IMG/VR virus record: IMGVR_UViG_3300035158_000052
Location: 1 to 26,375 of that record
Strand: one strand, 5' to 3'
Origin: a virus
Length of the DNA stretch: 26,375 nt
Part shown: piece after piece, positions 2,636 through 23,801 of the stretch
Layout: each line of letters starts with the position of its first letter
Numbering within the stretch: the stretch's first letter is position 1
The notes under the pieces: generated by a model
Seen by the model: only the letters and a program-made list of their open reading frames with translations
Told to the model about the DNA's origin: nothing
The model's database searches: none
Position numbers and translations under genes: made by a program

Positions 2636-3553
2636 TCAGTCTTCTTCGATGTCCATCTGAAGCGCGTCGAAGTTCGACGCTTCATAGACCGTCGCGACGT
2701 GGATCGACGCGATCCCCGCCTTCGTCTTCGATGACGCGGATCCCGGAGCGCCCGCCAGCGCCCGGCCCGGCCCTGTCCAGAGATATTCGTGCCCGCCCTT
2801 TTCGACGTTCACCTTCGTCCCGTCGATCAGTTCGAATTCCAGCGCGTCCGGCCCGGTTCGGTTCGGTTCGAAGACATACTTTGCGACAGTCTTCGCGCGT
2901 TCGCCGCCCGTCCGGGACACCGTGACGCCCATGAACAGAAGTTCGCCGATCTGCGCTTCGATCTTCCCGACAGTGAACGGCGCGTCGTTCGTCGTCGCTT
3001 CCGCGTTATGCCACGTCCGCATCAGTTCCGGCGTGATGTCTTCGTGTGTCCAGAACTTCGTCACTTCGATTTCAGCCGCGCCGACGAAGATGTCGACGCC
3101 TTCGATCTTGTCCCCGTTCACGCCTATCGCCGTCGACGGATCTTCCCCGCCGCCCGCTGGCGGATAGATCTTCTGCTTCGACGGATCCTTGACGTGTGTG
3201 ATGTGTCCCGTCTGGGACATCAGCGTCGTCGACCATGAATCCCGCTGTCTGTTCCCGCCTTCGCCGCCGCCCTTGTCGAACGTGTATGTCACCGTCCCCA
3301 GCGTCAGCGGATCCGCCGTCCGCCCGCCCGTCTTCGCGGGTTCAGTCTTGATGTCCGTGACTTGCGCCAGCATCACCGTTCCGGACGCGGTTTCATAGAG
3401 TTCGCCATAGTCCGGAAGATAAGACTTCGCGTCGATGGGATCGAAGATCCGAACGTCGAACGTCCGCGTGATCGTGTATCCGTCGGACGTTTCTTCATAG
3501 ACTGGGGATCCGTCCTTCTCCGTGACGATGTTGGGATCCAGAACCTTCGCCAT
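2636..3553 (-). CDS. Unrecognised virion protein after the tape measure (305 aa)
   Basis: This is the first gene downstream of the tape measure, where siphoviruses carry distal tail or tail-hub proteins. The 305-residue product opens MAKVLDPNIVTEKDG and is a mixed beta-type protein with many Thr, Gly and Asp. It includes FVGAAEIEVTKFWTHEDITP and a Gly/Ala-rich segment WTGPGRALAGAPGSASS near residues 257-273. The ATG at 3553 has GGAAGGGG upstream. No family motif is recognised, so a distal tail role is inference from order alone. Confidence 0.75.
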   Translation of the reverse strand: MAKVLDPNIVTEKDGSPVYEETSDGYTITRTFDVRIFDPIDAKSYLPDYGELYETASGTVMLAQVTDIKTEPAKTGGRTADPLTLGTVTYTFDKGGGEGGNRQRDSWSTTLMSQTGHITHVKDPSKQKIYPPAGGGEDPSTAIGVNGDKIEGVDIFVGAAEIEVTKFWTHEDITPELMRTWHNAEATTNDAPFTVGKIEAQIGELLFMGVTVSRTGGERAKTVAKYVFEPNRTGPDALEFELIDGTKVNVEKGGHEYLWTGPGRALAGAPGSASSKTKAGIASIHVATVYEASNFDALQMDIEED

Positions 3554-3570
3554 GTGTCAGCCCCTTCCTG

Positions 3571-5298
3571 TCATCCGAACTGCGCCGCTGGCGTGACATC
3601 CGTGTTTTCGACGATCTTGTCAGCGGCGACGACGATCTTCTTCAGCGCGTCCAGTTGCTTTTCCTGTGTCCGCGTCTGCGGGATCATCCGCGCCGCCAGC
3701 TTCCCGCTGAACGTCCCGAACACCTTCCCGGCGTCGCCGCCCTTCCCGAAGTCCAGCCCCAGATCCGTCCCGGCGCCGCCGAATCCGCCGACGGCTTTCC
3801 CGACGATGTCCTTCCGCTTCTTCGCTTCGGCTTCCGCGATGTCTTCGGCGAAGACGGCTTCGGACGCCGCGCGAAGATCTTCGATCTTCTTCTGTGTCGC
3901 CATGTCCCGCGCGACTTTCCGTTCGCCCAGTTCCCGCCAGCGATCATCGGACGCCTTCAGCGATTGTTCTTCCAGCCCGTCATAGTATGCCTTCGCGTCC
4001 GCCTTCAGCCGACGGATCGAATCCGTCCCGATCTCCGGGACAGACCATTTATCAGGAAGGATGCTGTTCAGTTGGCGGATCATCCAGTTCATCGCGGACA
4101 CGACCTTTTCGACAAGCCACCAGATCGCTTGATTCATCCCGCGCGACATCCGAACCCAGATCCGGAACAGGACGGATCCGACATCGCGGAACTGAACCGT
4201 CAGCGCGTCCCATGCGTTCGCCAGCCAATTCACGACGCCTTCCCAGACGCGAAGGATCCCCAGCCCGACGGCTGTCAGCCACGTCTTGATCTTCACGCCG
4301 CCGATCCGGACGTTCCCGACGAAGTCGCTGAAGCCGACATCGATCACGCCCAGCGCGTCCAGAAGGATGAACAGCCCGGCGACGGCTAGCCCCAGCGCCC
4401 CGGCTGGCGTCAGAAGCATCATCACGAACGCGATGATCTTCCCCAGCGCCAGAAGCGCGACGCCGATCCCGAAGACTAGCGCCGTGATCTTCACATACAG
4501 GATGACGGCTTCCTTGTTCGCCGCGATCCACTTCGCGAACGCGACGATCTTCTGGATCACCGTCGCGAGAAGATCCTTCGTCGCGGGAAGAAGCGCCTTC
4601 GCGATCTGCATCGACGCGCCCAGCATCGACAGCTTGACATCCGTCCACGCGTCCCGAAGTTCTTCAGCGGCGACGGCGTCCTTCCCGGACACGCTGATCC
4701 CCAGTTCGCGCGCCCGCGCCCGAAGCTTGTCGATCCCCGCCGCGCCCTGATTCATCAGCGGGATCAGTTGCATCCCGGCCCGCCCGAAAACGCGCTGTGC
4801 GACAGCCGCCTTCAGCGTCGCGTTTTCCATCTTCCCGATCCGATCCGCCAGAAGAAGGAACTGCTGTTCCGGCGTCAGCTTGTCCAGTTCTTCCAGCTTC
4901 ACGCCCGCCGCTTCCAGCGTGTCTTCTGCGTCCTGAAGTTCCCGCTTCGCATCGAAGACGACGCGGGACATCCCCTTGAACGCTTTTTCGAACGTCTTCG
5001 CGTCCGCCCCTGTGATCGTCGCCGCGTATCCCAGTTCGGACACGGCTTCAGTCGTCAGCCCCAGCCGCCGCGCCGTCTTCGCGACATCGTCCCCGTATCG
5101 CGTGAACGCCGCCAGCGATCCGATGACTGGCGCCGCCATGACAGCGCCCGCCTTCATCAGCGACTTCCCGGCGGTTTCGATCCCCTTCCCGAAGTTGGCG
5201 ACTTTCCGCTTCGCGCCCGCCAGCGCCTTCGCCAGCTTCGCGTCCTTCCCGCCGATCTCGACGTAAGCGGCGCCCGCCTTGACTTCACTTCCCGGCAT
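3571..5298 (-). CDS. Tail tape measure protein
   Basis: The 575-residue protein has the build of a tape measure. A charged, Ala/Lys-rich N-terminus is followed by a glycine/alanine hydrophobic patch and a TMP-like segment with RYGDDVAKTARRLGLTTEAV. A long hydrophobic stretch of roughly residues 265-320 (IGVALLALGKIIAFVMMLL) would form one or two membrane-inserting helices during DNA ejection. The C-terminal part is charged and helical. At about 1.5 angstroms per residue the length predicts a tail near 85 nm, which is inference from the usual relationship. Its ATG overlaps the end of the GT frame (5285-5298), the normal order of chaperone then tape measure in siphoviruses. Confidence 0.92.
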   Translation of the reverse strand: MPGSEVKAGAAYVEIGGKDAKLAKALAGAKRKVANFGKGIETAGKSLMKAGAVMAAPVIGSLAAFTRYGDDVAKTARRLGLTTEAVSELGYAATITGADAKTFEKAFKGMSRVVFDAKRELQDAEDTLEAAGVKLEELDKLTPEQQFLLLADRIGKMENATLKAAVAQRVFGRAGMQLIPLMNQGAAGIDKLRARARELGISVSGKDAVAAEELRDAWTDVKLSMLGASMQIAKALLPATKDLLATVIQKIVAFAKWIAANKEAVILYVKITALVFGIGVALLALGKIIAFVMMLLTPAGALGLAVAGLFILLDALGVIDVGFSDFVGNVRIGGVKIKTWLTAVGLGILRVWEGVVNWLANAWDALTVQFRDVGSVLFRIWVRMSRGMNQAIWWLVEKVVSAMNWMIRQLNSILPDKWSVPEIGTDSIRRLKADAKAYYDGLEEQSLKASDDRWRELGERKVARDMATQKKIEDLRAASEAVFAEDIAEAEAKKRKDIVGKAVGGFGGAGTDLGLDFGKGGDAGKVFGTFSGKLAARMIPQTRTQEKQLDALKKIVVAADKIVENTDVTPAAQFG

Positions 5299-9465: not shown

Positions 9466-9783
9466 TCAGGATCCCCCTTCGACTTCGTCTTCGGCCTCGG
9501 CGACTTCGCCGGGCGCCGTATCCGGCGGGACGCTTGTCCCGTCCGTCCGCCCGTCGGCGTCCGGTTCGGGATCGTCGATGACTTCGACTTCGACCTTGTC
9601 CCCTTCGATCTTCCGCGAGTTCATCACGGCTTCCGGCGTCCCGATGATTTCGCAGATCCCGGAGATCGCCAGCCGCTTCGCTTCGATCTTGTCCAGTAGA
9701 TCTTCGTCGCCCGCTTCGCGGGGACGCGCCTGTCCGCCGATCACGGCGACAGTCTTCATCTTCCACTTCACCATCACGAACAT
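9466..9783 (-). CDS. Hypothetical 105-aa protein with acidic tail
   Basis: The ATG at 9783 overlaps the pyruvyl transferase-family stop as ATGA, so the gene is translationally coupled to the modification module. The N-terminal half opens MFVMVKWKMKTVAVIGG and includes EAKRLAISGICEIIG. The C-terminal third is very acidic and Pro/Gly-rich (EVIDDPEPDADGRTDGTSVP). The N-terminal part could be a small virion domain of the kind found near capsid genes. I do not recognise the family. Confidence 0.65.
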   Translation of the reverse strand: MFVMVKWKMKTVAVIGGQARPREAGDEDLLDKIEAKRLAISGICEIIGTPEAVMNSRKIEGDKVEVEVIDDPEPDADGRTDGTSVPPDTAPGEVAEAEDEVEGGS

Positions 9784-10571
9784 CAGTCACCCTTTCCCAT
9801 AAACGGACACGACGCCAGAAGCGTCGACTGGATGTCGCCGGGAATCCGGAACGCGTCACCGACAGACGCGATGACGGCGTCGGCTGGAACACCATCGTCG
9901 CGGATCTGGAACGGCGACACGTCCGGACGCCCGACGCCCGCGAAATAGTCCCTGAACTTGAACCCCCCGCCCGCGACCTTGTCGCTGAATTCCGCCCAGA
10001 CAGCCGGGATCCCATACGCGTCCGCGATGATGATCGCGTGAAGCGACGACGACACGACAGCGGCGCAAGACACGACGGATCGGACGAAGTCTTCGACGCG
10101 TTCGGACACGTTCAGGATCCGGAAGCGCCCGTCCTTCTTCGCCCGCTTGATCCACGCGTGTCCCTTGTCGATATAGTGCGGACAGATCCCGATCCTGTCG
10201 TCGCGTTCGACCTTCTTCGGCGCGAAGATGAACGGAAGGATGATCGCCGGATCCCCGAAGACGCCGGGATGATCGATCCCCTGCGCTTCGACGACGGCGC
10301 CGGATAACGGCCCGCGAAGCGCCCGGATGTCCTTCGGCGCATTGTTCATCCGCTGTCTCGCCGACAGGAAGCCGGATCCCCAGACGATCCCGTTCGTGAA
10401 GTCGATGTCCTTCGTCCCCAGAACAGACCCCGCCGCGACGATCAGCGGATCGTCCGGCTTCCCGACAGTCGCCAGCTTCGGATCGACGCCCGCCAGCCGC
10501 CGGATCAGATATGGCGTCAGCCGATCCCCGACGTTCGGTTCGTCGTTATCCGTGAAGTAGAACACGCGCAT
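9783..10571 (-). CDS. Polysaccharide pyruvyl transferase family protein
   Basis: The 262-residue protein fits PF04230. It begins MRVFYFTDNDEPNVGDRLTP, with the family's N(W/V)GD motif at residues 13-16, and continues with IVAAGSVLG, GIVWGSGFL, IRALRGPLSGAVVEAQGI, FGDPAIILP, IGICPHYID and the late signature VVSSSLHAIIIADAYGIP. Characterised members move a pyruvyl group from phosphoenolpyruvate onto a sugar as a ketal; other members act as sugar transferases. The TGATG overlap couples it to the double glycosyltransferase, so both probably act on one glycan. The donor and acceptor cannot be read from sequence. Confidence 0.86.
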   Translation of the reverse strand: MRVFYFTDNDEPNVGDRLTPYLIRRLAGVDPKLATVGKPDDPLIVAAGSVLGTKDIDFTNGIVWGSGFLSARQRMNNAPKDIRALRGPLSGAVVEAQGIDHPGVFGDPAIILPFIFAPKKVERDDRIGICPHYIDKGHAWIKRAKKDGRFRILNVSERVEDFVRSVVSCAAVVSSSLHAIIIADAYGIPAVWAEFSDKVAGGGFKFRDYFAGVGRPDVSPFQIRDDGVPADAVIASVGDAFRIPGDIQSTLLASCPFMGKGD

Positions 10572-12724
10572 CAGACGATCCCTTTCGCTTCGGCGACGAC
10601 ATCAGCCGGGATCCCCGTTTCGGCTTCGACAGGATCCGCTTCCGGCGCCTTCCTTTCGATGTGATCGAACGCCCGCGTGACGATGTCCGGAAGCGCCCAG
10701 TCGACGCGCTTCACAATCCCTTCCGGCGTGTTCCCGATCTTCCCGTCCCAGTTCATCCACGCTGTCTTTTCCTTCGCCTGTCCTTCGATCTCCGCATAGA
10801 ACGACTTCTTCTGTTCCATGAAGTCGCGGGGAAGCGCGTGTCCCAGATGATACAGGACGCACTTGTCCCGAAGCGCCATCACCGTCGGAATGTTCTGTTC
10901 GGGATTCCAGACACATTCTTCGTTCGACTTCATCGGGACGACGTGAAGCTTCCAACCGTAGGACGCCCGCCATGTGAAGATCCGCGTGTGAGGCCAAATC
11001 GCGCCGAACGTCGTCAGATCGGACGCCTTCCCCCAGCGTCGGAGATCCGGACAGACGATGTGATGATCGCGATCATGCCAGAACGTCACGCCCAGCGGAC
11101 AGCCGCCGGAGATCTCGCGACGTTCAAGCGCCCGGACGAAGTGTTCCAGCCCCGTCCAGATTTCATCACCGTCCAGAATCAGGACGAAGTTCCCCCGGAC
11201 GTGACGACACGCGGCGCGGCGCATCTTCTGGCGACACTGTTCTTCCGTGTTCCCCTTCCAGACGATCCCGCCGTCCGGCGGGAAGATGACGCGGATCTTC
11301 TGTTCCGGATCCGGGAAGGACGTGATGACTTCCAGCGTGTCGTCTTCCGGCCAGTTCCAGATCTGTTCCCGCCCGTATGCGATCAGGATTTCGTCGACGT
11401 GATCATATACGCCTTCCAGCGCGAAGCCGACAGTCTTCGCACACGCGAACGCGTTCATCACGGCGGATATGTGAACGGACTTCGAATGATGAAGCGGCGT
11501 CGCGTCGACGGTTCGCTTCATCGCGTCCATCCCGATCTTCGCGACGACGCGCTGTCTGTCTTCCGCCGACACGCGGACGGGATCCTTCAGAAGCGTCGCC
11601 GCCTTCGCCTTGAACGCTTCGTGATCCCCGTGTGGAACGTAGTGAAGGACATCCCCATATTCTTCCCGAAGGACGGGAAGATCGAAGACAAGCGACGGCG
11701 TCCCGACAGCCGCCGCTTCGCCCGGTACCATGCCGAACCCTTCGAACCGCGACGGCGCCAGAACAAGCGCCGCCCGTTCCATCAGCGCGAACTTCACGCG
11801 ATCCGGCAGTTCCGGGAGCTTGTGGAAGCGATGAAGCGACGTTTCCGCCGCGTCCAGCGTCGTCCGTCCGACGGCGACAAGATCACACTGGAACGGAAGC
11901 TTCCACACGGCGCGGATCGCCAGCGGATTGTTCTTATATGTGTCCGCCCGCCCGCTGATGACGGCGAACTTCCGACCCGATAGCTGGATCGGAAGATCGG
12001 CGCCGACATCGATCTGGAACGTGTTCACGCCCGGACGGATGACGACGATCTGGGGTTCGTCCTGTCCGATCCACTCGCGAAGATGACGCGCCGATTCGGC
12101 GCTATTCGCGACGGCGAGATCCGCCGCCCGGAAGACATCCTTGAACGTGTCGTGATAGCGGATGTTCGACACAAGATCCGGACAGAACTTTTCGAACCAG
12201 TTCGGCGTTTCGAAGTTCCAGACGACAAGCGGGATCCCGCGCTGGCGGGACACCTTCAGCCCCTTCCGCGCGACGGGATTCTTCCCGTCCGCGATGATCA
12301 GATCGATGTCCGCGATGGATTCCCAGTCGTCCGCCGTGAAGCGCAGATTGTCACAAAGCGGATAATCATCCCACCATTTCGGCTTCCGGTTCGCGCAGAA
12401 GATCACGTCGTTCCCCAGCCGCGCCAGCGTGTGCGCCGTCTGGAAGATGTGGATCCGCCCGCCCGAATACCATTTCGACATCGGCATCGTGACGACGACG
12501 CGATTCCGGCCCGGCGCCAGATCCAGCACGGGCTTGATGTCCGCCGCGTTCAGATCCCGCGCCGATGACGTGTGCGCCGGGACGACCTTCCCGTCCGCCA
12601 GAAGCTTCGCCGCGACGTGTCGATTCGAAATGTCGACAAGCTGTCCCTTCTGGATCACGACTTCGCGTCCGTGTGGATCCTTGAACTTGAACGCGACCTT
12701 CGCCCTGTGCCAAGATTCGATCAT
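10571..12724 (-). CDS. Fused GT4-GT2 double glycosyltransferase with phage-type N-terminal domain
   Basis: I choose the ATG at 12724 (MIESWHRAKVAFKF), giving 717 residues; the longer frame to 12880 runs into the capsid gene. Residues 1-55 resemble a small phage domain (VVIQKGQLVDISNRHVAAKL, then LADGKVVPA). Residues 74-410 are a GT-B, GT4-like enzyme with an E-x7-E motif, PSRFEGFGMVPGEAAAVGTP (E328, E336). Residues 417-680 are a GT-A, GT2-like enzyme with VDEILIAYG and the metal-binding DGDE at 518-521. The two domains would add successive sugars. Placement straight after the capsid gene and a hairpin suggests that virion proteins are the acceptor. Cytoplasmic; no membrane segment is seen. 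Confidence 0.88.
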   Translation of the reverse strand: MIESWHRAKVAFKFKDPHGREVVIQKGQLVDISNRHVAAKLLADGKVVPAHTSSARDLNAADIKPVLDLAPGRNRVVVTMPMSKWYSGGRIHIFQTAHTLARLGNDVIFCANRKPKWWDDYPLCDNLRFTADDWESIADIDLIIADGKNPVARKGLKVSRQRGIPLVVWNFETPNWFEKFCPDLVSNIRYHDTFKDVFRAADLAVANSAESARHLREWIGQDEPQIVVIRPGVNTFQIDVGADLPIQLSGRKFAVISGRADTYKNNPLAIRAVWKLPFQCDLVAVGRTTLDAAETSLHRFHKLPELPDRVKFALMERAALVLAPSRFEGFGMVPGEAAAVGTPSLVFDLPVLREEYGDVLHYVPHGDHEAFKAKAATLLKDPVRVSAEDRQRVVAKIGMDAMKRTVDATPLHHSKSVHISAVMNAFACAKTVGFALEGVYDHVDEILIAYGREQIWNWPEDDTLEVITSFPDPEQKIRVIFPPDGGIVWKGNTEEQCRQKMRRAACRHVRGNFVLILDGDEIWTGLEHFVRALERREISGGCPLGVTFWHDRDHHIVCPDLRRWGKASDLTTFGAIWPHTRIFTWRASYGWKLHVVPMKSNEECVWNPEQNIPTVMALRDKCVLYHLGHALPRDFMEQKKSFYAEIEGQAKEKTAWMNWDGKIGNTPEGIVKRVDWALPDIVTRAFDHIERKAPEADPVEAETGIPADVVAEAKGIV

Positions 12725-12762
12725 CAGTCTGTCCCCAGCCGAACACGGTTCACGCCAGATAA

Positions 12763-12794
12763 CGAAGGGACGGGACGTTCGCCCCGCCCCTTCG
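12763..12794 (-). other. Long GC-rich hairpin after the major capsid gene
   Basis: On the minus strand CGAAGGGGCGGGGCG pairs with CGTCCCGTCCCTTCG across AA. Thirteen Watson-Crick and two G-U pairs are possible, with the innermost pair probably open. It begins ten bases after the capsid stop and ends 38 bases before the glycosyltransferase ATG. No strong T-run follows, so partial termination, attenuation or protection of the capsid message is more likely than full termination. Confidence 0.68.
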
Positions 12795-12804
12795 GAAACG
12801 TCGA

Positions 12805-14262
12805 TCAGGACGACGCGACATCGTCCAGATAGACGAGCGCGCGCGGAAGCATCGGACGCCCGCCGGCGACGGCGAAACACTTGAACGCCGTGACGTTGTC
12901 TTGGAACTTGTAGTGTTCCGACTTCGCGATGGTGATTTCTTCTTCCATCGCAAGGAAGTAGGAACGCAGATTCCCGAAGATCACGTCCCCGGCGTTCCCC
13001 AGCGTCGGACAGTTCGTCCCGACTTGATGGGGCTTCCCGTTCAGCCGATCATAAGGCCCATTCGCCATCGACGCCCGGAACAGCGGACGACCCAGCGTGT
13101 CGACCTGAAGTTCCAGATGTTGCATGACTGAATCGGCCAGCGTGTAGGATCCCGCCGCGCGCGACTGGGGCTTGATCGCATATTTCAGATTCGTCAAGTC
13201 CGTCGCGCCCACAGCGCCCGCCGCCTGTCTTGCGACAGTCCGGACGCCAGTTTCGACAAGGATCCCCGTCGGCTGTCCCGTCCCCGTCCCGCTGATGACG
13301 ACGATATCGATGGCGCGCTTGATCGCTTCGCCGAACAACAGCGTGATCAGCGCTTCCAGATCGATAGCGGAACGCTTCAGCATCCGATCACCGATTTCCG
13401 TGTAGGCCGCGACTTCGTGTGTCGTGATCTGACGCTGTGTGAACTGGGGACGCGTCGCGGGTTTCGGCGCGCCTTCGTCGATCCACGTCACGGACACGCC
13501 CGCGAGTTCGTCCGAATCCGACTGGACAAGTCCCGGCCATGTGATCGTCCCGCCACGCGACGGGATGATCGTGACGCGATCAAACACGTTCGGCACGTCG
13601 AAAGGAAGGTATTGCAGAACGGCGCGATAGTCCGGCGGGACAAGTTGCGCCGCGCCGGATCCGGATCCCGACCCCGCCGCCGAATCCGTCGACAGAACGA
13701 CGAGCGGATCCGCCGCCTTCCCCGCGATGTGTGGCGACGGCGCGATCCCGAAGATGGAATCGAACCGTTTCCCGAGCATCGCGTGAACGACGTGACGCGG
13801 AAGAAGAACCGAACCGTCGGCTTCGCCTTCCCGGAGCGCCTTACAGGACGGCGTCAGAAGATCCCGTTCCGCGTCCGACAGAATCATCTTCGGATCGGGA
13901 TTCGCCGTCGACGCGCGAAGATACTTGAACAGCGCCTTCGCATGCGCCCGCTGGCGCTCCATGTGATCGACGGGCTTCGCGTCCGGCTTCGGCGGATCGT
14001 CATCGGGAAGATCCACTGTCTTCGCGTCCGCGATCCCGGCGACATCGTTCTGAACGGCGATCATCGCCGCCCGTTCCTTCAGCCGCTTCGCTTCGACTTC
14101 CAGCGCCTTGAATTCGCCGACCTTCGCGTCATACGCTTCCCGCGCAGACGTGATGTCGGCGTCTTCCGCGCCGTCCGCTTCCAGCTTGGCGACCTTCCCG
14201 GCGAGATCGTCGCATTCGGCGATCAGCGCCTTCATCTTTTCCGCCAGCTTTTTCGGATCCAT
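12805..14262 (-). CDS. Major capsid protein, HK97 fold with delta domain
   Basis: The 485-residue protein has an N-terminal coiled coil (about 1-75, MDPKKLAEKMKALIAECDDL), the internal-scaffold delta domain that the prohead protease removes. After an acidic linker the capsid body begins near residue 100. Family-like features are RVTIIPSRGGTITWPGL, VSVTWIDEGAPKPATRPQFT, the helix region LLFGEAIKRAIDIVVISGTG and the QPTGIL segment, and a C-terminal DNVTAFKCFAVAGGRPMLP. It follows the prohead protease gene, the canonical order. It is longer than HK97 gp5 (385 aa), partly through the delta and linker region. Confidence 0.93.
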   Translation of the reverse strand: MDPKKLAEKMKALIAECDDLAGKVAKLEADGAEDADITSAREAYDAKVGEFKALEVEAKRLKERAAMIAVQNDVAGIADAKTVDLPDDDPPKPDAKPVDHMERQRAHAKALFKYLRASTANPDPKMILSDAERDLLTPSCKALREGEADGSVLLPRHVVHAMLGKRFDSIFGIAPSPHIAGKAADPLVVLSTDSAAGSGSGSGAAQLVPPDYRAVLQYLPFDVPNVFDRVTIIPSRGGTITWPGLVQSDSDELAGVSVTWIDEGAPKPATRPQFTQRQITTHEVAAYTEIGDRMLKRSAIDLEALITLLFGEAIKRAIDIVVISGTGTGQPTGILVETGVRTVARQAAGAVGATDLTNLKYAIKPQSRAAGSYTLADSVMQHLELQVDTLGRPLFRASMANGPYDRLNGKPHQVGTNCPTLGNAGDVIFGNLRSYFLAMEEEITIAKSEHYKFQDNVTAFKCFAVAGGRPMLPRALVYLDDVASS

Positions 14263-15980: not shown

Positions 15981-16651
15981 TTCGCTTCCTGTCCCGTCTT
16001 CCTGTCCCGACAGTCGCCCTGTCGTGTGAAGATGCACATCCCATGCGCCCCTTCGCCGTGTCGCCGCCCGGAGATCGCGCCGTCCAGCCACGTCGCCAGA
16101 ATCCCCGTATGTGCGACTTCGAATTCCACGTCCCGACACGCCCGGCGAACGTCGTCGATCCCCAGATTCACGTCATGGACGACGACGACCTTCGGTTCGA
16201 GCCCGATGGAAACACGGATGTCCGCGACGGCGACATCGTATCGATGACACGCGTCGACGTGGATCAGATCGAAGGATCCGGGGACGGCTTCGTCCAGATA
16301 GTCGTCCGTCGACTTCGATTCGATGTCGACAGACAGCCCCAGATCCGCCAGCCGCTTCAGCGCCTTGTCCGGGGATCCCCCGCCGCCGCCGCCCGTGTCG
16401 CCCGTCCAGTTGTCGACGCCGACGACGCGGACTTCCGCCGGGATCCCCGCCTGCGTCATCGCTTCGGCCTGATCATGCGCCGCCGCCGCCAGCCACGACA
16501 GCGACGCGCCCGTGTTCACGCCCAGTTCAAGGATCCGCGTCGCCCCATACATCCGCGCCAGCCCATACAGGAAGACGCGTTCCGGCTGGGACGTTCCCGC
16601 GTGTCCGTGATCGGCTTCCCAGCGGATCAGTTTTTCGATCCGGCTTGTCAT
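15977..16651 (-). CDS. Class I SAM-dependent methyltransferase, Methyltransf_24-like
   Basis: The ATG at 16651 overlaps the sulfotransferase stop (ATGA) and gives 224 residues; an in-frame extension to 17284 is a shadow. The Rossmann core shows TRILELGVNTGASLSWLAA (motif I, about 38-56), RVVGVDNWTGD (75-85), FDLIHVDACHRYDVAVADI (117-135) and PKVVVVHDVN (143-152). That arrangement, with an Asp-His-metal-like HVDACHRY, resembles O-methyltransferases of the CmcI/Methyltransf_24 group, often acting on sugars or glycan precursors. A glycine run at 87-92 is unusual. It follows two sulfotransferases in a coupled cluster and is likely to modify the same product. Substrate unknown. Confidence 0.86.
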   Translation of the reverse strand: MTSRIEKLIRWEADHGHAGTSQPERVFLYGLARMYGATRILELGVNTGASLSWLAAAAHDQAEAMTQAGIPAEVRVVGVDNWTGDTGGGGGGSPDKALKRLADLGLSVDIESKSTDDYLDEAVPGSFDLIHVDACHRYDVAVADIRVSIGLEPKVVVVHDVNLGIDDVRRACRDVEFEVAHTGILATWLDGAISGRRHGEGAHGMCIFTRQGDCRDRKTGQEAK

Positions 16652-17361
16652 TCGTGACAGCGTCCCTTCATGACCTTCGTGATGTCGCCGACGACGGACG
16701 GCGACAGCCGCTTCCACTTCGTCAGCGTCGCCGCGTCCGGCTGTTCGAAGTCGACTTCCTTGAACGACACCGTCAGCCCCAGAAGATCTTCGACGGGCTT
16801 CAGCGCCCGCGTCGGCGACTTGACAAGCGTGTCGAAGTTCACGACGCGGATCCGATCCTTCCCCAGCGCCTTCTTCAGACGCCGAAGTTCCCGCGTGTGC
16901 GAACGGACGCGGATCGCGTGTCGCACATGCGCCGCCAGCTTGCCGAAGCCGTCGGCGTTCTTCTCCGTCTTCCCGATGAAGGGACACGGAACGGGAAGCT
17001 GATCGGCGTCCCAGCCCGAAACGCCCGCATGCGCCAGCATCGACGCGACTGTCGCGACGGCGTCCCGCTGGATCCCGACGAAGACGATGTCGTCGTCCAG
17101 CTTCGCGAGATCTTCCGCCGCCCAGATCGCCGGATGCGCCTTGAACACGGAATGCTTCTTCGGGAAGCCCGACGCGACGGCGTTCATCTGGCGGATCATC
17201 TTCGGGACAAGATCCCGAAGCCCGTGAACGCCTATCGCCATCGCTGTCCCGAACACGTTCGACGCTTCCCCGAAGTGAACGCATTCGGGATGCGCCGCCA
17301 GAATCCTTCCGATCCAGTTCGTCCCGGATCGCCCTGTCCCGATGATGATCGCCTTCTTCAT
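16648..17361 (-). CDS. Sulfotransferase family protein (second copy)
   Basis: The 237-residue protein has the PAPS-type P-loop AIIIGTGRSGTNWIGRIL (4-21), where sulfotransferases place the 5'-phosphosulfate-binding loop. It also has VFVGIQRDAVATVASMLAHA (93-112), matching the R...S 3'-phosphate site, and RVVNFDTLVKSPTRALKPV, the usual region before the C-terminal helices. These enzymes move sulfate from PAPS onto sugar or tyrosine hydroxyls. It overlaps the first sulfotransferase and the methyltransferase by ATGA junctions. It shares only the fold motifs with its neighbour and is not a recent duplicate. PAPS would come from the host. Confidence 0.86.
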   Translation of the reverse strand: MKKAIIIGTGRSGTNWIGRILAAHPECVHFGEASNVFGTAMAIGVHGLRDLVPKMIRQMNAVASGFPKKHSVFKAHPAIWAAEDLAKLDDDIVFVGIQRDAVATVASMLAHAGVSGWDADQLPVPCPFIGKTEKNADGFGKLAAHVRHAIRVRSHTRELRRLKKALGKDRIRVVNFDTLVKSPTRALKPVEDLLGLTVSFKEVDFEQPDAATLTKWKRLSPSVVGDITKVMKGRCHE

Positions 17362-17969
17362 CTGTCCGCCCCTTCCTGTTCGTATCCCAGACGTGTCGCG
17401 ACTTCCCAGTCGAACCGTCCGATGACAGCGGACAGCGTGTCGCGCGAATAGTGATCCATCCAGCGCCGTTCCGTGTAGTATGTCGGATCGAACCGTTCGT
17501 CCGACACCTTCCCCGTCGTCGTCATCTTCCCCTTCGGCATGTGGAACGGCTTCGAATTCCGTTCGGCGCCGATCTCCGACGCGACGCGTTTCATCACGGC
17601 TTCCGGATCCACGATCAGATCTTCATATCGGACGAACGACATCCCGCATTCTTCCAGCCGGACTTCCGTCCAGTCCCGATAGAGCGTGTTCCAGCGTCCG
17701 ACGGCGCCGGATCGCGTCGCGAACTGATGGAACGTCATCGTCTGTCGCTGGAAGCGGAACATCGACGGAAGCCATGCCAGCGGATGCTTCGACATCACGA
17801 CGACGTTCACTTCCTTCCCGTAGATCTCCGGGACGCGATACAGCCCATGCGTCCAGCCGCCAGCGGACGACGTGATGATCTCCGCGCGGAAGTTCGTCTG
17901 AAGAAGGAACTTCATCAGATTGTTCCCGCTTCGCATCGCGCCGAAGATCTTGACTTCCGTCTTCGTCAT
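17358..17969 (-). CDS. Sulfotransferase family protein (first copy)
   Basis: The 203-residue product opens MTKTEVKIFGAMRSGNNLMK with a P-loop at 9-20 (GAMRSGNNLM, cf. GxxRSGTN). It has VNVVVMSKHPLAWLPSMFRF (54-73) at the 3'-phosphate site and FVRYEDLIVDPEAVMKRV (112-129), the usual late helix signature. The SGNN form in place of SGTN/GTT is a variation, and the size is at the short end. It begins in the portal stop (ATGA), so it would be made with the portal. Target is unknown: glycan sulfation fits the neighbouring sugar enzymes, but protein tyrosine sulfation is possible. Confidence 0.84.
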   Translation of the reverse strand: MTKTEVKIFGAMRSGNNLMKFLLQTNFRAEIITSSAGGWTHGLYRVPEIYGKEVNVVVMSKHPLAWLPSMFRFQRQTMTFHQFATRSGAVGRWNTLYRDWTEVRLEECGMSFVRYEDLIVDPEAVMKRVASEIGAERNSKPFHMPKGKMTTTGKVSDERFDPTYYTERRWMDHYSRDTLSAVIGRFDWEVATRLGYEQEGADR

Positions 17970-19425: not shown

Positions 19426-20892
19426 TCACAGTCGCGAGATCCCGAACCGCGCCGCCGCTTCTGTGATCTCCGTGTAGACGGCGATCACCGTCGCGTCGAC
19501 CTGATCCAGCTTCATCCCGCGTCCCTTCTTCGGAAACGTCGCGAATTCCTTGATGAAGTCTTCGTTCCAGTCCGCCCGCTTCAGGATCATGTTCCCCGCT
19601 TCGATAGGCGCCTGAAGGACGGATCCCCGCGCGACCTTGTCCTTGTCCGGCGTCACGCGCTCGACGACACAGAAGCCCGACAGCTTCGTCGCCATTCTGT
19701 CGAATGTGTCCTTGTAGCCCGCGACAGCTTCGATCCGAAGACGCGAATCGGATCCGTCGCTGATCGCCGTCGCCGTCATCACGTCGTCCCGGCGCGACGC
19801 GCCCCACTGTCCGCGAACGACATCGCGGACAAACACCTTCCCTTCCGCATACGCCGCAAGCGCGCCGACGCTGAAGTCCGGATCGTCGCTGTCCAGTTCC
19901 TTCGCCGTCGACGCCGGATCCCAGCCCCGGACGAAGTCCGCCCCGGCGTTCGTCGCGAGTTCGTCGAAGCGATCCGGCGGGACGATCTGGATCTTGTCGG
20001 CCCGGAAGAAGTTCCCCGTTCGCGGACGCGGATCCTGAAGCCCCAGCGCCGCCCATGCGCCCGACGACATCAGCGCCCGCGCCGAACGATACCATGACGC
20101 CGGGAAGCGTTCCGGGAACAGGAAGCCGTCCGGATTCCCCTTCCGCTTCCACGCGTCGTTCTGCGCCGGGAACTTGATCACGTCGAATTTCGGGAAGTCC
20201 GGATCGAACAGTTCGGATTCCGGATCGTTCACGGATTCGATCCAGCCACACAGATCGTCCGGGTGCCACCTTTGCGCGACGATGATGACGGCGTGAACTG
20301 GCGCCCGCCGCGTCATCAGATCGACCTTGAACGATTCGCGAACGCGATCCCGGATCAGTTGCGATTCCGCTTCCTGAATGTTCTTGTGGAAGTCGTCGAT
20401 GATCAGGAAGTCGGCGCCGCGCCCGATGATCGTCCCGCCCAGCCCCGCCGCGTGAAGCGCGTCCCCGTGTGTCGTGTACCATGAACCGATCCGATCCCTG
20501 TCCTGTGCGATCCCGATCCCGAATTCCGGCCCGCGTTCCCGGACGCATTCCCGCGCGTCGAACGACAGCCCCGCCGACAGTTCGAAGTTGTATGTCGCCA
20601 GAATGACTTCCAGCGGCGGATCGTCCGGACGCTGTCCCATGAGGATCCACGCGGGAAGCCGACGCGACGCGATGTCCGACTTCCCGTGTCGGAAGGGGAC
20701 GTTCAGGATCACATATCGCGACACGCCCCGCCGGACATCGGCGACGACAGTGTTCAGTTCCGCCAGCATCCCCAGCGTGTGACGCCCGAACAAGTAGGAC
20801 GGACGCGGCGAGAATAAGCGGAAGAACGTGTCGAAGTCTTTCCGCGCGATTCGAAGAAGATGATCCCGTCGGACGACGGCTTCGTTCAGCAT
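19426..20892 (-). CDS. terL: Terminase large subunit
   Basis: The 488-residue packaging motor has an N-terminal ATPase with Walker A NVPFRHGKSDIA (64-75) and Walker B FLIIDDFHK (162-170). An AQRWHPDDLCG coupling motif (206-216) follows. A C-terminal RNase H-like nuclease domain begins at FVRGWDPASTA (D325), with later acidic residues including DQVDATV (about 466). The form VPFRHGKS in place of VPPRHGKS is a small variation. The 488-aa length fits Terminase_6C-type enzymes. ATG 20892 lies 20 bases past the preceding stop. It is followed by the portal, the normal order. Confidence 0.94.
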   Translation of the reverse strand: MLNEAVVRRDHLLRIARKDFDTFFRLFSPRPSYLFGRHTLGMLAELNTVVADVRRGVSRYVILNVPFRHGKSDIASRRLPAWILMGQRPDDPPLEVILATYNFELSAGLSFDARECVRERGPEFGIGIAQDRDRIGSWYTTHGDALHAAGLGGTIIGRGADFLIIDDFHKNIQEAESQLIRDRVRESFKVDLMTRRAPVHAVIIVAQRWHPDDLCGWIESVNDPESELFDPDFPKFDVIKFPAQNDAWKRKGNPDGFLFPERFPASWYRSARALMSSGAWAALGLQDPRPRTGNFFRADKIQIVPPDRFDELATNAGADFVRGWDPASTAKELDSDDPDFSVGALAAYAEGKVFVRDVVRGQWGASRRDDVMTATAISDGSDSRLRIEAVAGYKDTFDRMATKLSGFCVVERVTPDKDKVARGSVLQAPIEAGNMILKRADWNEDFIKEFATFPKKGRGMKLDQVDATVIAVYTEITEAAARFGISRL

Positions 20893-21237: not shown

Positions 21238-21459
21238 TTATCGCCCGGCGACGACGACGGACGCGTCGATCTTGTCAAGGATCGTCGACTTCAGCTCCGC
21301 CTTCTGCGCCAGCGCATGGTCGGCCTGGCGCTGTAGCCCGTTCATAATCGCTTGCACCTGCTCCTTCGTGTTCGTCACCTTCACGCCCGACGGATGCGTC
21401 AGTTCGACAGCCGTCTTCGTGAACGTCATCGTGATTTTGTCCTGCACGTTGCCCGCCAT
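21238..21459 (-). CDS. 73-aa protein following the DUF1566 gene
   Basis: The ATG at 21459 has AAGGAG at the right distance, and an extension to 21579 is a shadow. The sequence opens MAGNVQDKITMTFTKTAVEL, continues HPSGVKVTNTKEQVQAIMNG and ends in a helix with ILDKIDASVVVAGR. It lies 10 bases after the DUF1566 stop and shares its composition (TTG and CTC codons, ordinary GATC content). It may form one acquired unit with that gene, for example as a chaperone or an anchor. It is shorter than known accessory variability determinant proteins and I do not claim that identity. Confidence 0.65.
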   Translation of the reverse strand: MAGNVQDKITMTFTKTAVELTHPSGVKVTNTKEQVQAIMNGLQRQADHALAQKAELKSTILDKIDASVVVAGR

Positions 21460-21469
21460 GACTTTCTCC

Positions 21470-22045
21470 TTACGGCGTGTTGTTGTTGTAGACGCCGCCG
21501 CGTACCGGCCACGCCCAATACAGCGACGACTTCGCGCCCCAGAAGTAGATATGTACGTCGAGGAAGTCCCACCATACATACCAAGCGTATGGCGACCAGG
21601 TCGCGTCCGTAGTCGCAGACCAGTAGTAGTAACTGCCGTCCGCCAGTACGAGCGGGCTCCACACCTTCATAGAGGCGTTCTCGAAGTCGATAATGGAGCA
21701 CAACTCGTTGATGTTGGGAAGCCGCCAGTCCGTATGTCCAGCATAACTGAGAGCCAGACAGTTGTCGATTGCATCGTCCCAGTCCATCGTGGCGTCGAAC
21801 GGCGAGCCGGGGCCGTTCTGAGGGTCTTTCACCCACATCAGCCCCGTTGCGTGATCCGTTACCGTGCCGTCGCCGTTGTCAACGAAGCGCGTAGCTTCGT
21901 CCGGGTCTCCGAACAACTGCACGAGAGCGGCTGTCGTGCCGTCCGGAAGTCCAGTTTCAAAGTGACCGTCGTCACCCGCTCGGTAGATTGTCGTCTGCGC
22001 GGTTGGCGGCAACCCATACAACTTTTTCAAACGCTTCGTGTGCAT
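21470..22045 (-). CDS. DUF1566 (Lcl C-terminal) lectin-fold protein, likely surface adhesin or DGR-type target
   Basis: I choose the ATG at 22045 (MHTKRLKKLYGLPP), which has AAAGGAG upstream overlapping the previous stop, giving 191 residues. The DUF1566 domain covers about 53-184: RFVDNGDGTVTDHATGLMWV, GHTDWRLPNINELCSIID, YYYWSATTDATWSPYAWYVW, and the closing WPVRGG. This C-type lectin-like fold displays variable ligand-binding residues and is used by some diversity-generating retroelement targets and by phage host-binding proteins. Residues about 139-180 (WYVWWDFLDVHIYFWG and on) are in the variable position of such targets. No reverse transcriptase or template repeat lies in the window. 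Codon use differs from its neighbours. Confidence 0.82.
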   Translation of the reverse strand: MHTKRLKKLYGLPPTAQTTIYRAGDDGHFETGLPDGTTAALVQLFGDPDEATRFVDNGDGTVTDHATGLMWVKDPQNGPGSPFDATMDWDDAIDNCLALSYAGHTDWRLPNINELCSIIDFENASMKVWSPLVLADGSYYYWSATTDATWSPYAWYVWWDFLDVHIYFWGAKSSLYWAWPVRGGVYNNNTP

Positions 22046-22056
22046 CGCGTTCTCCT

Positions 22057-22593
22057 TTACCACACGCTGATTCGGAGGTTCGTGTAGTTACTACCACCGA
22101 CCGCGTTCTTCGCCTGAATCACGGATCCCGCCGGGATGTTCAGCCCGTCCAGCGCGTAGATCTGATTCGCCGTGACGAAGAAGTGATCCGTCGTCCCGCC
22201 GTCCAGCGACAGGATCGCGTCGTTCCCCGGATCAAGCTGAAAGATCAGATAGTGACAGACGCGGTTCGGCGTTGTCAAGACTGTCGCGTATGCGTCCGCG
22301 CCAGCGGCGTCCGTCTGGAATTCCGCCGGAAGCCCGGATCCCGGAACGACGCGAAGCGCCGCCGCGTCCGCTTCGACGCGCGCCCTGTCGTCGTTCGTGT
22401 GATCCTTGATTTCGACGGCGCCGATCTCCACGTCGCCGACTTGCAGTTCGGCGTCGACGCCCGTCTTGATCTCGCCAAGATCTTCCGTGATCGCGCCGCT
22501 GACGACGCGGACAAGATGCATCTTCCCCGTCGACGCATTGAACGCCTGTTCGATGATCCCGCCGCCGATTCGTGTCAGATCGGAGATCGCCAT
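22057..22593 (-). CDS. Unrecognised virion-type protein (178 aa)
   Basis: The product opens MAISDLTRIGGGIIEQAFNA and ends PAGSVIQAKNAVGGSNYTNL, then RISVW. It is Ala-, Gly- and Asp-rich with many beta-prone segments (AELQVGDVEIGAVEIKDHTN), which is the look of a phage decoration, fibre-anchor or small tail protein. It lies between the small-terminase candidate and the DUF1566 gene and may be a base on which the lectin domain sits, an inference from order. The TAA stop forms part of the next gene's ribosome site. No family is recognised. Confidence 0.72.
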   Translation of the reverse strand: MAISDLTRIGGGIIEQAFNASTGKMHLVRVVSGAITEDLGEIKTGVDAELQVGDVEIGAVEIKDHTNDDRARVEADAAALRVVPGSGLPAEFQTDAAGADAYATVLTTPNRVCHYLIFQLDPGNDAILSLDGGTTDHFFVTANQIYALDGLNIPAGSVIQAKNAVGGSNYTNLRISVW

Positions 22594-23525: not shown

Positions 23526-23801
23526 TCAGCCCCTTTCCCGTCGGCGTTTCCGGATGAAGTCCGCCGTCGCCTGTCGATCCAGTTCGACAGCGCCAGCCCG
23601 GACAGCTTCCCGACGCATGTTCCGATTCAAGTCATAATGGACGAAGCCCGTCTTGTCCTGTCGCCAGCTTGTCATCATGCCGATCTTCAGCGCGAAGCGA
23701 TCCAGTTCTTCGACGCTGTCGGCGAACATGACACAGGATTCCTTCCAGCGCCAGCGGCGATTCGGGACACACGGAAGCATCTTGTCGACGTAGACGCCCA
23801 C
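23526..23801 (-). CDS. DUF4031 domain protein (91 aa)
   Basis: A GTG start at 23801 is supported by AAGGGGG six bases upstream. The product has MGVYVDKMLPC, then SCVMFADSVEELDRFALKIG, TSWRQDKTGFVHYDLNRNMR and REAVRAGAVELDRQ. This order, a VYVD start, a (C/H)xM.ADS.EEL..FA..IG segment, then HYDL and A...GA.E, is that of DUF4031, a small family common in phages and of unknown biochemical role. The match is close in motif spacing. It is one gene in a tightly packed accessory run. Confidence 0.85.
   Translation of the reverse strand: MGVYVDKMLPCVPNRRWRWKESCVMFADSVEELDRFALKIGMMTSWRQDKTGFVHYDLNRNMRREAVRAGAVELDRQATADFIRKRRRERG

Follow-up and report, generated by a model that had tools for sequence, protein, structure and literature searches.

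The window analysed here is the entire 26,375-bp linear virus record IMGVR_UViG_3300035158_000052, a fragment with a GC content of 62%. Read along the minus strand, it begins with small genes, a putative terminase small subunit (a weak assignment), a 178-aa gene and a gene for a DUF1566 protein. These are followed by genes of 73 and 102 aa, the terminase large subunit, the portal, two sulfotransferase-like genes, a Mu-F-like gene, the major capsid protein, glycosyltransferase-like genes, tail completion and tape measure (Table 1). The two sulfotransferase-like genes, together with a polysaccharide pyruvyl transferase and a glycosyltransferase (group 1) ORF, lie at 16648-17969 and 9783-12880 on the minus strand; these genes for surface-modifying enzymes sit among the head genes and form an unusual set. 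A DUF4031 protein (PF13223, E 5e-14) is encoded at 23526-23801, also on the minus strand.

Table 1. Coordinates of the DUF1566 gene, its parts and its neighbours in the window
Feature	Position	Strand	Basis
Terminase large subunit	19426..20892	-	phrog_38, E 3e-67
Small 3' neighbour, 73 aa, coil-like by eye	21238..21459	-	hhalign E 7.5e-6, probability 84%
DUF1566/Lcl_C C-type-lectin-fold protein, 191 aa from ATG	21470..22045	-	PF07603, AF2 model; homology and RBS for the start
Conserved tail PVRGGVYNNNTP	21473..21508	-	32 nt identical to L007; 12/12 aa
W/Y-rich fast-diverging block, residues 127-185, presumed ligand face	21509..21685	-	L007 comparison, model secondary structure
Neck and first half of lectin domain, residues 16-126, conserved	21686..22018	-	74% aa and 71% nt identity to L007
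Upstream neighbour, 178 aa, function unassigned	22057..22593	-	Position only

The DUF1566 ORF is open as far as a GTG at 22063 (21470-22063, minus strand). The ATG at 22045 is the likely start, as the earlier note had it, since an AAAGGAG Shine-Dalgarno sequence precedes it and the starts of relatives agree (MHIQQ.., MHLKH..). The protein matched the full PF07603 (Lcl_C) profile (positions 1-117) with 83 bits (E 2.5e-23), compared to a curated cut-off of 34.9 bits, and an AF2 model (pLDDT 76, pTM 0.78) predicted a C-type-lectin fold, so that the earlier description of a DUF1566 lectin-fold protein was borne out. The best solved structural match was the C-terminal domain of Legionella Lcl (8q4e; Z 10.8 over 121 residues, 18% identity), and a search of the PDB by sequence gave no relative of the protein below E 0.02. 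The last strands and loops are the usual ligand face of the C-type-lectin fold, and the divergent block described below, in which the model places strands at residues 146-152, 159-164 and 169-174, covers these last strands and loops. Legionella Lcl is a trimer that binds sulphated glycosaminoglycans (PMC11162425). It shares the PF07603 domain and the fold with the window protein, but trimerisation and glycosaminoglycan binding are features of Lcl; the window protein is phage-encoded and lacks the collagen-like stalk, with no Gly-X-Y repeat in its sequence.

The C-terminus is rich in Tyr and Trp, as had been noticed earlier. These two residues make up 23 of the 197 residues of the ORF (11.6%), mostly C-terminal, compared to 1-7% in the other ORFs of the window. 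This composition, and the position of the block, had led to the suggestion that the gene is a possible target of a diversity-generating retroelement (DGR) served by a distant reverse transcriptase (RT), a retired target, or a stable receptor-binding protein. Among the domains that DGRs target, DUF1566 is common (PMC4159848, PMC6642488), and RT-bearing viral DUF1566 genes exist. Targets of this kind (in the Bacuni phages, PMC8143477, and at our loci L025 and L026) have in common with the window protein the domain, a block at the position of the variable repeat (VR), and a terminal VRPVRG strand; they differ from it in that neither RT nor template repeat (TR) was found in the window record, its codons are not all NNY and its synonymous divergence is ordinary. 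Mtd of Bordetella phage BPP-1 resembles the window protein in fold (1yu3, Z 8.2 over 125 residues; Mtd variants about 8), which is modest support, and no DGR is evident in the window. The GC-rich WPVRGG segment, which the earlier note placed at the end of this region, is the terminal strand; it is not in itself a DGR signature, because VRPVRGG is found in nearly all of the DUF1566 relatives aligned.

No RT (PF00078) was detected anywhere in the 26,375-bp window, and a scan of both strands for template copies, tolerant of changes at A, gave best matches that scored like dinucleotide shuffles; both results agree with what had been reported for the 26 kb. A single low-scoring 40-mer at 9672-9711 (minus strand) was rejected as a TR, as it carried 6 non-A mismatches and was equalled in 2 of 30 shuffles. 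As positive controls, we used RT-bearing viral DUF1566 loci, run through the identical scan: a profile scan of IMG/VR yielded 46 viral DUF1566 loci, of which 10 were in RT-bearing records. A TR free of non-A mismatches over 60 nt was recovered in 9 of these 10 (there was no test result for the tenth, L020), at a distance of 0.6-1.1 kb from the target. Since the scan recovers the control TRs, the null result for the window is informative within the record, where it covers 4 kb on the upstream side of the DUF1566 gene and 21 kb on its downstream side. One of the RT-bearing records (L026, record G020) has two RT genes, at 12094 and 25576. DGR-type VRs, each accompanied in its contig by a near-identical second copy, were also seen in L013, L037 and L048, with no RT found in the record; L048 gave a TR with 0 non-A mismatches in 60 nt, and L013 and L037 had NNY codons at all 11 variable columns defined below.

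A run of NNC codons had been taken to fit adenine-directed change. We found no enrichment of NNC or NNY codons; NNY made up 49% of the C-terminal block compared to 53% of the remaining gene, and the share of C-ending codons in the gene (38%) is usual for this phage. For a more specific comparison, the AAY codons of seven templates were mapped onto the DUF1566 alignment, which defined 11 variable columns. At these columns the controls had NNY in 61 of 61 cases and the window in 7 of 11 (Fisher p 3e-4; for the window, the column mapping depends on an alignment in which its protein has a 2-residue insertion). The four exceptions, TGG, GCG, TCG and CTG, all end in G, and at a background NNY share of 46%, at least 7 of 11 would be reached in 19% of cases. 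This shortfall is strong but not absolute, because template codons of the AAG type, and only those, could still yield the four exceptions.

The sole relative of the window, and a distant one, is IMGVR_UViG_3300028193_000090 (L007). Its protein is 57% identical to the window protein over 182 residues, and the DNA is 73% identical across the N-terminal half of the gene. The two have the same neck and the same VYNNNTP tail; however, their C-terminal blocks are unrelated and their 3' neighbours differ, and the L007 gene sits after the capsid and other late genes, while that of the window sits before the terminase. L007 also has a Mu-F-like ORF (3032-4777; PF04233, E 7e-7) with an intein-splicing-like segment 3' of the Mu-F domain (PF14890, E 5e-7, below the cut-off). 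Within the W/Y-rich block, identity was at background level (33% nt, 9 of 56 aa), with a saturated pS of 0.82 and a pN of 0.56 (roughly 21509..21685) compared to a pN of 0.26 upstream. The block has diverged more rapidly than the remaining gene, and beyond any RT-less pair measured. Given this pS and this nucleotide identity, the blocks of the two genes do not go back to a recent common template. When homing starts from one template, synonymous sites stay similar (pS 0.03-0.33 in the controls), and the block therefore reflects either ordinary fast divergence or replacement of the whole segment. Beyond the block, the two genes share an identical 32-nt tail encoding RGGVYNNNTP; its codons are identical at 10 of 12 positions compared to a background of 42 of 78 (binomial p 0.036), which is mildly unusual. 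The tail carries a 6-bp stem (CGGCGT/ACGCCG) with a 13-nt loop, which is not supported as a DGR cruciform, since the stem is not unusual when compared to shuffles (z scores: window -1.3, L007 0.1).

If the gene were an active DGR target, the RT, Avd and TR would lie in the missing part of the genome or in the host and would rewrite the C-terminal block. An RT could be remote, since the record is a fragment and one DUF1566-type target of the Bacuni phages is far from its RT (PMC8143477), so that remote targets of this type are known; the divergence of the block between conserved flanks, and an identical 3' tail that resembles a homing anchor, would also fit. Against this stand the absence of RT and TR in the record over distances greater than those of the control TRs, the codons ending in G, and the synonymous and nucleotide divergence from L007. 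We consider active retrohoming quite improbable.

The motif of the conserved part of the protein (residues 16-126), a TGQT..Y..GDDG-type neck followed by VDNGDGTVTD..GLMW..DWRLPN, is common to 14 viral records (L008-L012, L015, L018, L019, L021, L022, L061, L064, L067 and L068). None of these 14 records contained an RT; they span 12-51 kb, some of them 35-51 kb, and in the five that were measured at least 6 kb lay on each side of the DUF1566 gene. A gene of 59-84 aa is found directly 3' of DUF1566 in L008, L010, L011, L012, L019, L021, L061, L064, L067 and L068, and the 73-aa neighbour in the window matches by hhalign the family of 59-81 aa proteins at this position in the first six of these. 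The 178-aa gene upstream occupies the position of a 96-98 aa protein 5' of DUF1566 in relatives, but was rejected as its homologue (hhalign no match, probability 0.4%).

In the V-block, pN/pS was 0.01-0.39 for RT-less pairs and 0.77-5.6 for RT-type control pairs, which had few synonymous changes in this region. The rank test gave p 0.001 but is merely indicative, because pairs share members. Judged from these substitutions, the C-terminal block of the RT-less relatives is under purifying selection, the clearest pair being L018/L021 with 18 synonymous changes and 1 nonsynonymous change over 50 codons. The lack of excess variation among close relatives, which the earlier note had named as telling against a DGR, is thus what we found in the wider RT-less subfamily. 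In L012/L022, the block had a pS of 0.58 compared to 0.14 upstream, with both kinds of site raised. This pattern fits the import of a diverged segment by recombination, which is suggested rather than proven because the regional background is uneven and the block lies mildly above it. The DUF1566 genes are identical within the pairs L016/L054 and L067/L068, which tells little, because the contigs are near-identical around the gene too. In L016 (3465-4376) and L054 (9983-10894), the DUF1566 ORF runs in frame for about 130 residues beyond the lectin domain; the extension resembles tail-completion sequence by eye and had no Pfam match.

Stability of the window gene itself is inferred from relatives that are 35-45% identical, because the nearest relative is distant. 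Searches for close relatives of the window with the terminase, the capsid and a 20-nt tail pattern gave nothing useful, no DUF1566 match was present in the INPHARED phages even at E 10, and a search of genome contigs gave one distant match, in a Kiritimatiellae MAG. Among plasmids, only cellular-type DUF1566 homologues were matched; Lcl_C proteins annotated plainly as DUF1566 occur on many bacterial plasmids, so a DGR ancestor is unnecessary. Such an ancestor is assumed if the gene is a target that was once diversified, lost its RT and TR, and is now drifting. The shared fold and the VR-like placement of the block agree with such a history, as do the three loci that carry DGR-type VRs in records with no RT found. 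However, no decayed TR above chance similarity and no residual NNY pattern was seen in the window, and retirement would have to be old and subfamily-wide, because the whole related subfamily is without an RT and under purifying selection. We regard a retired target as very improbable. The codons at four of 11 positions, which AAY templating would not yield, the missing template in the record, the saturated synonymous divergence and the purifying selection in relatives speak against both forms of the DGR proposal, and on these sequence comparisons the window gene is not supported as a DGR target. Of the three options raised earlier, the data favour a stable receptor-binding protein, with binding itself inferred.

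We propose that the gene probably encodes a stable, RT-independent phage protein of the Lcl_C fold that contacts the host, and whose specificity shifts by point divergence and block exchange and not by retrohoming. By analogy, it would act in association with the virion, as an adhesin or by binding a receptor. Anchoring or multimerisation is probably the task of the conserved neck (TGQT..GDDG type), perhaps assisted by the small coil-like 3' protein, and the aromatic C-terminal face may contact a glycan or another receptor on the host surface or in the surrounding matrix. Specificity would then change through ordinary point divergence and, presumably by recombination, through exchange of the C-terminal block between the conserved flanks, with mutagenic retrohoming playing no part.

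The protein might instead act outside the virion, as a surface protein, secreted or of the moron type, with which the phage changes its infected host or the lysogen. Its gene lies between those for the two terminase subunits (the small one putative), away from the tail-tip genes; the window also has sulfotransferase and glycosyltransferase genes, and the plasmid matches are to cellular-type proteins. However, inspection of the N-terminus by eye shows no evident signal peptide, the L007 copy follows capsid and other late genes, and the pair of DUF1566 and small 3' protein is retained in several phages. We give a non-virion role a low probability and retain the host-contacting phage protein as our preferred explanation.

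That the C-terminus of a phage DUF1566 protein is divergent and aromatic is thus not, on its own, evidence of a DGR. NNY codons at aligned positions, the pS of the block and an A-tolerant template scan separate real targets from RT-free relatives. Our results point to RT-free lectins with a conserved partner gene as a subfamily that recurs among phages. It is conceivable, though we think it rather doubtful, that neck, DUF1566 domain and coil-like protein make up a modular, RT-free lectin cassette of phages, in which the aromatic tip is exchanged as a whole between conserved flanks and the 3' tail, conserved at the level of DNA, serves as a recombination anchor. If true, such cassette swapping would diversify the tip of this same fold by a route other than a DGR.
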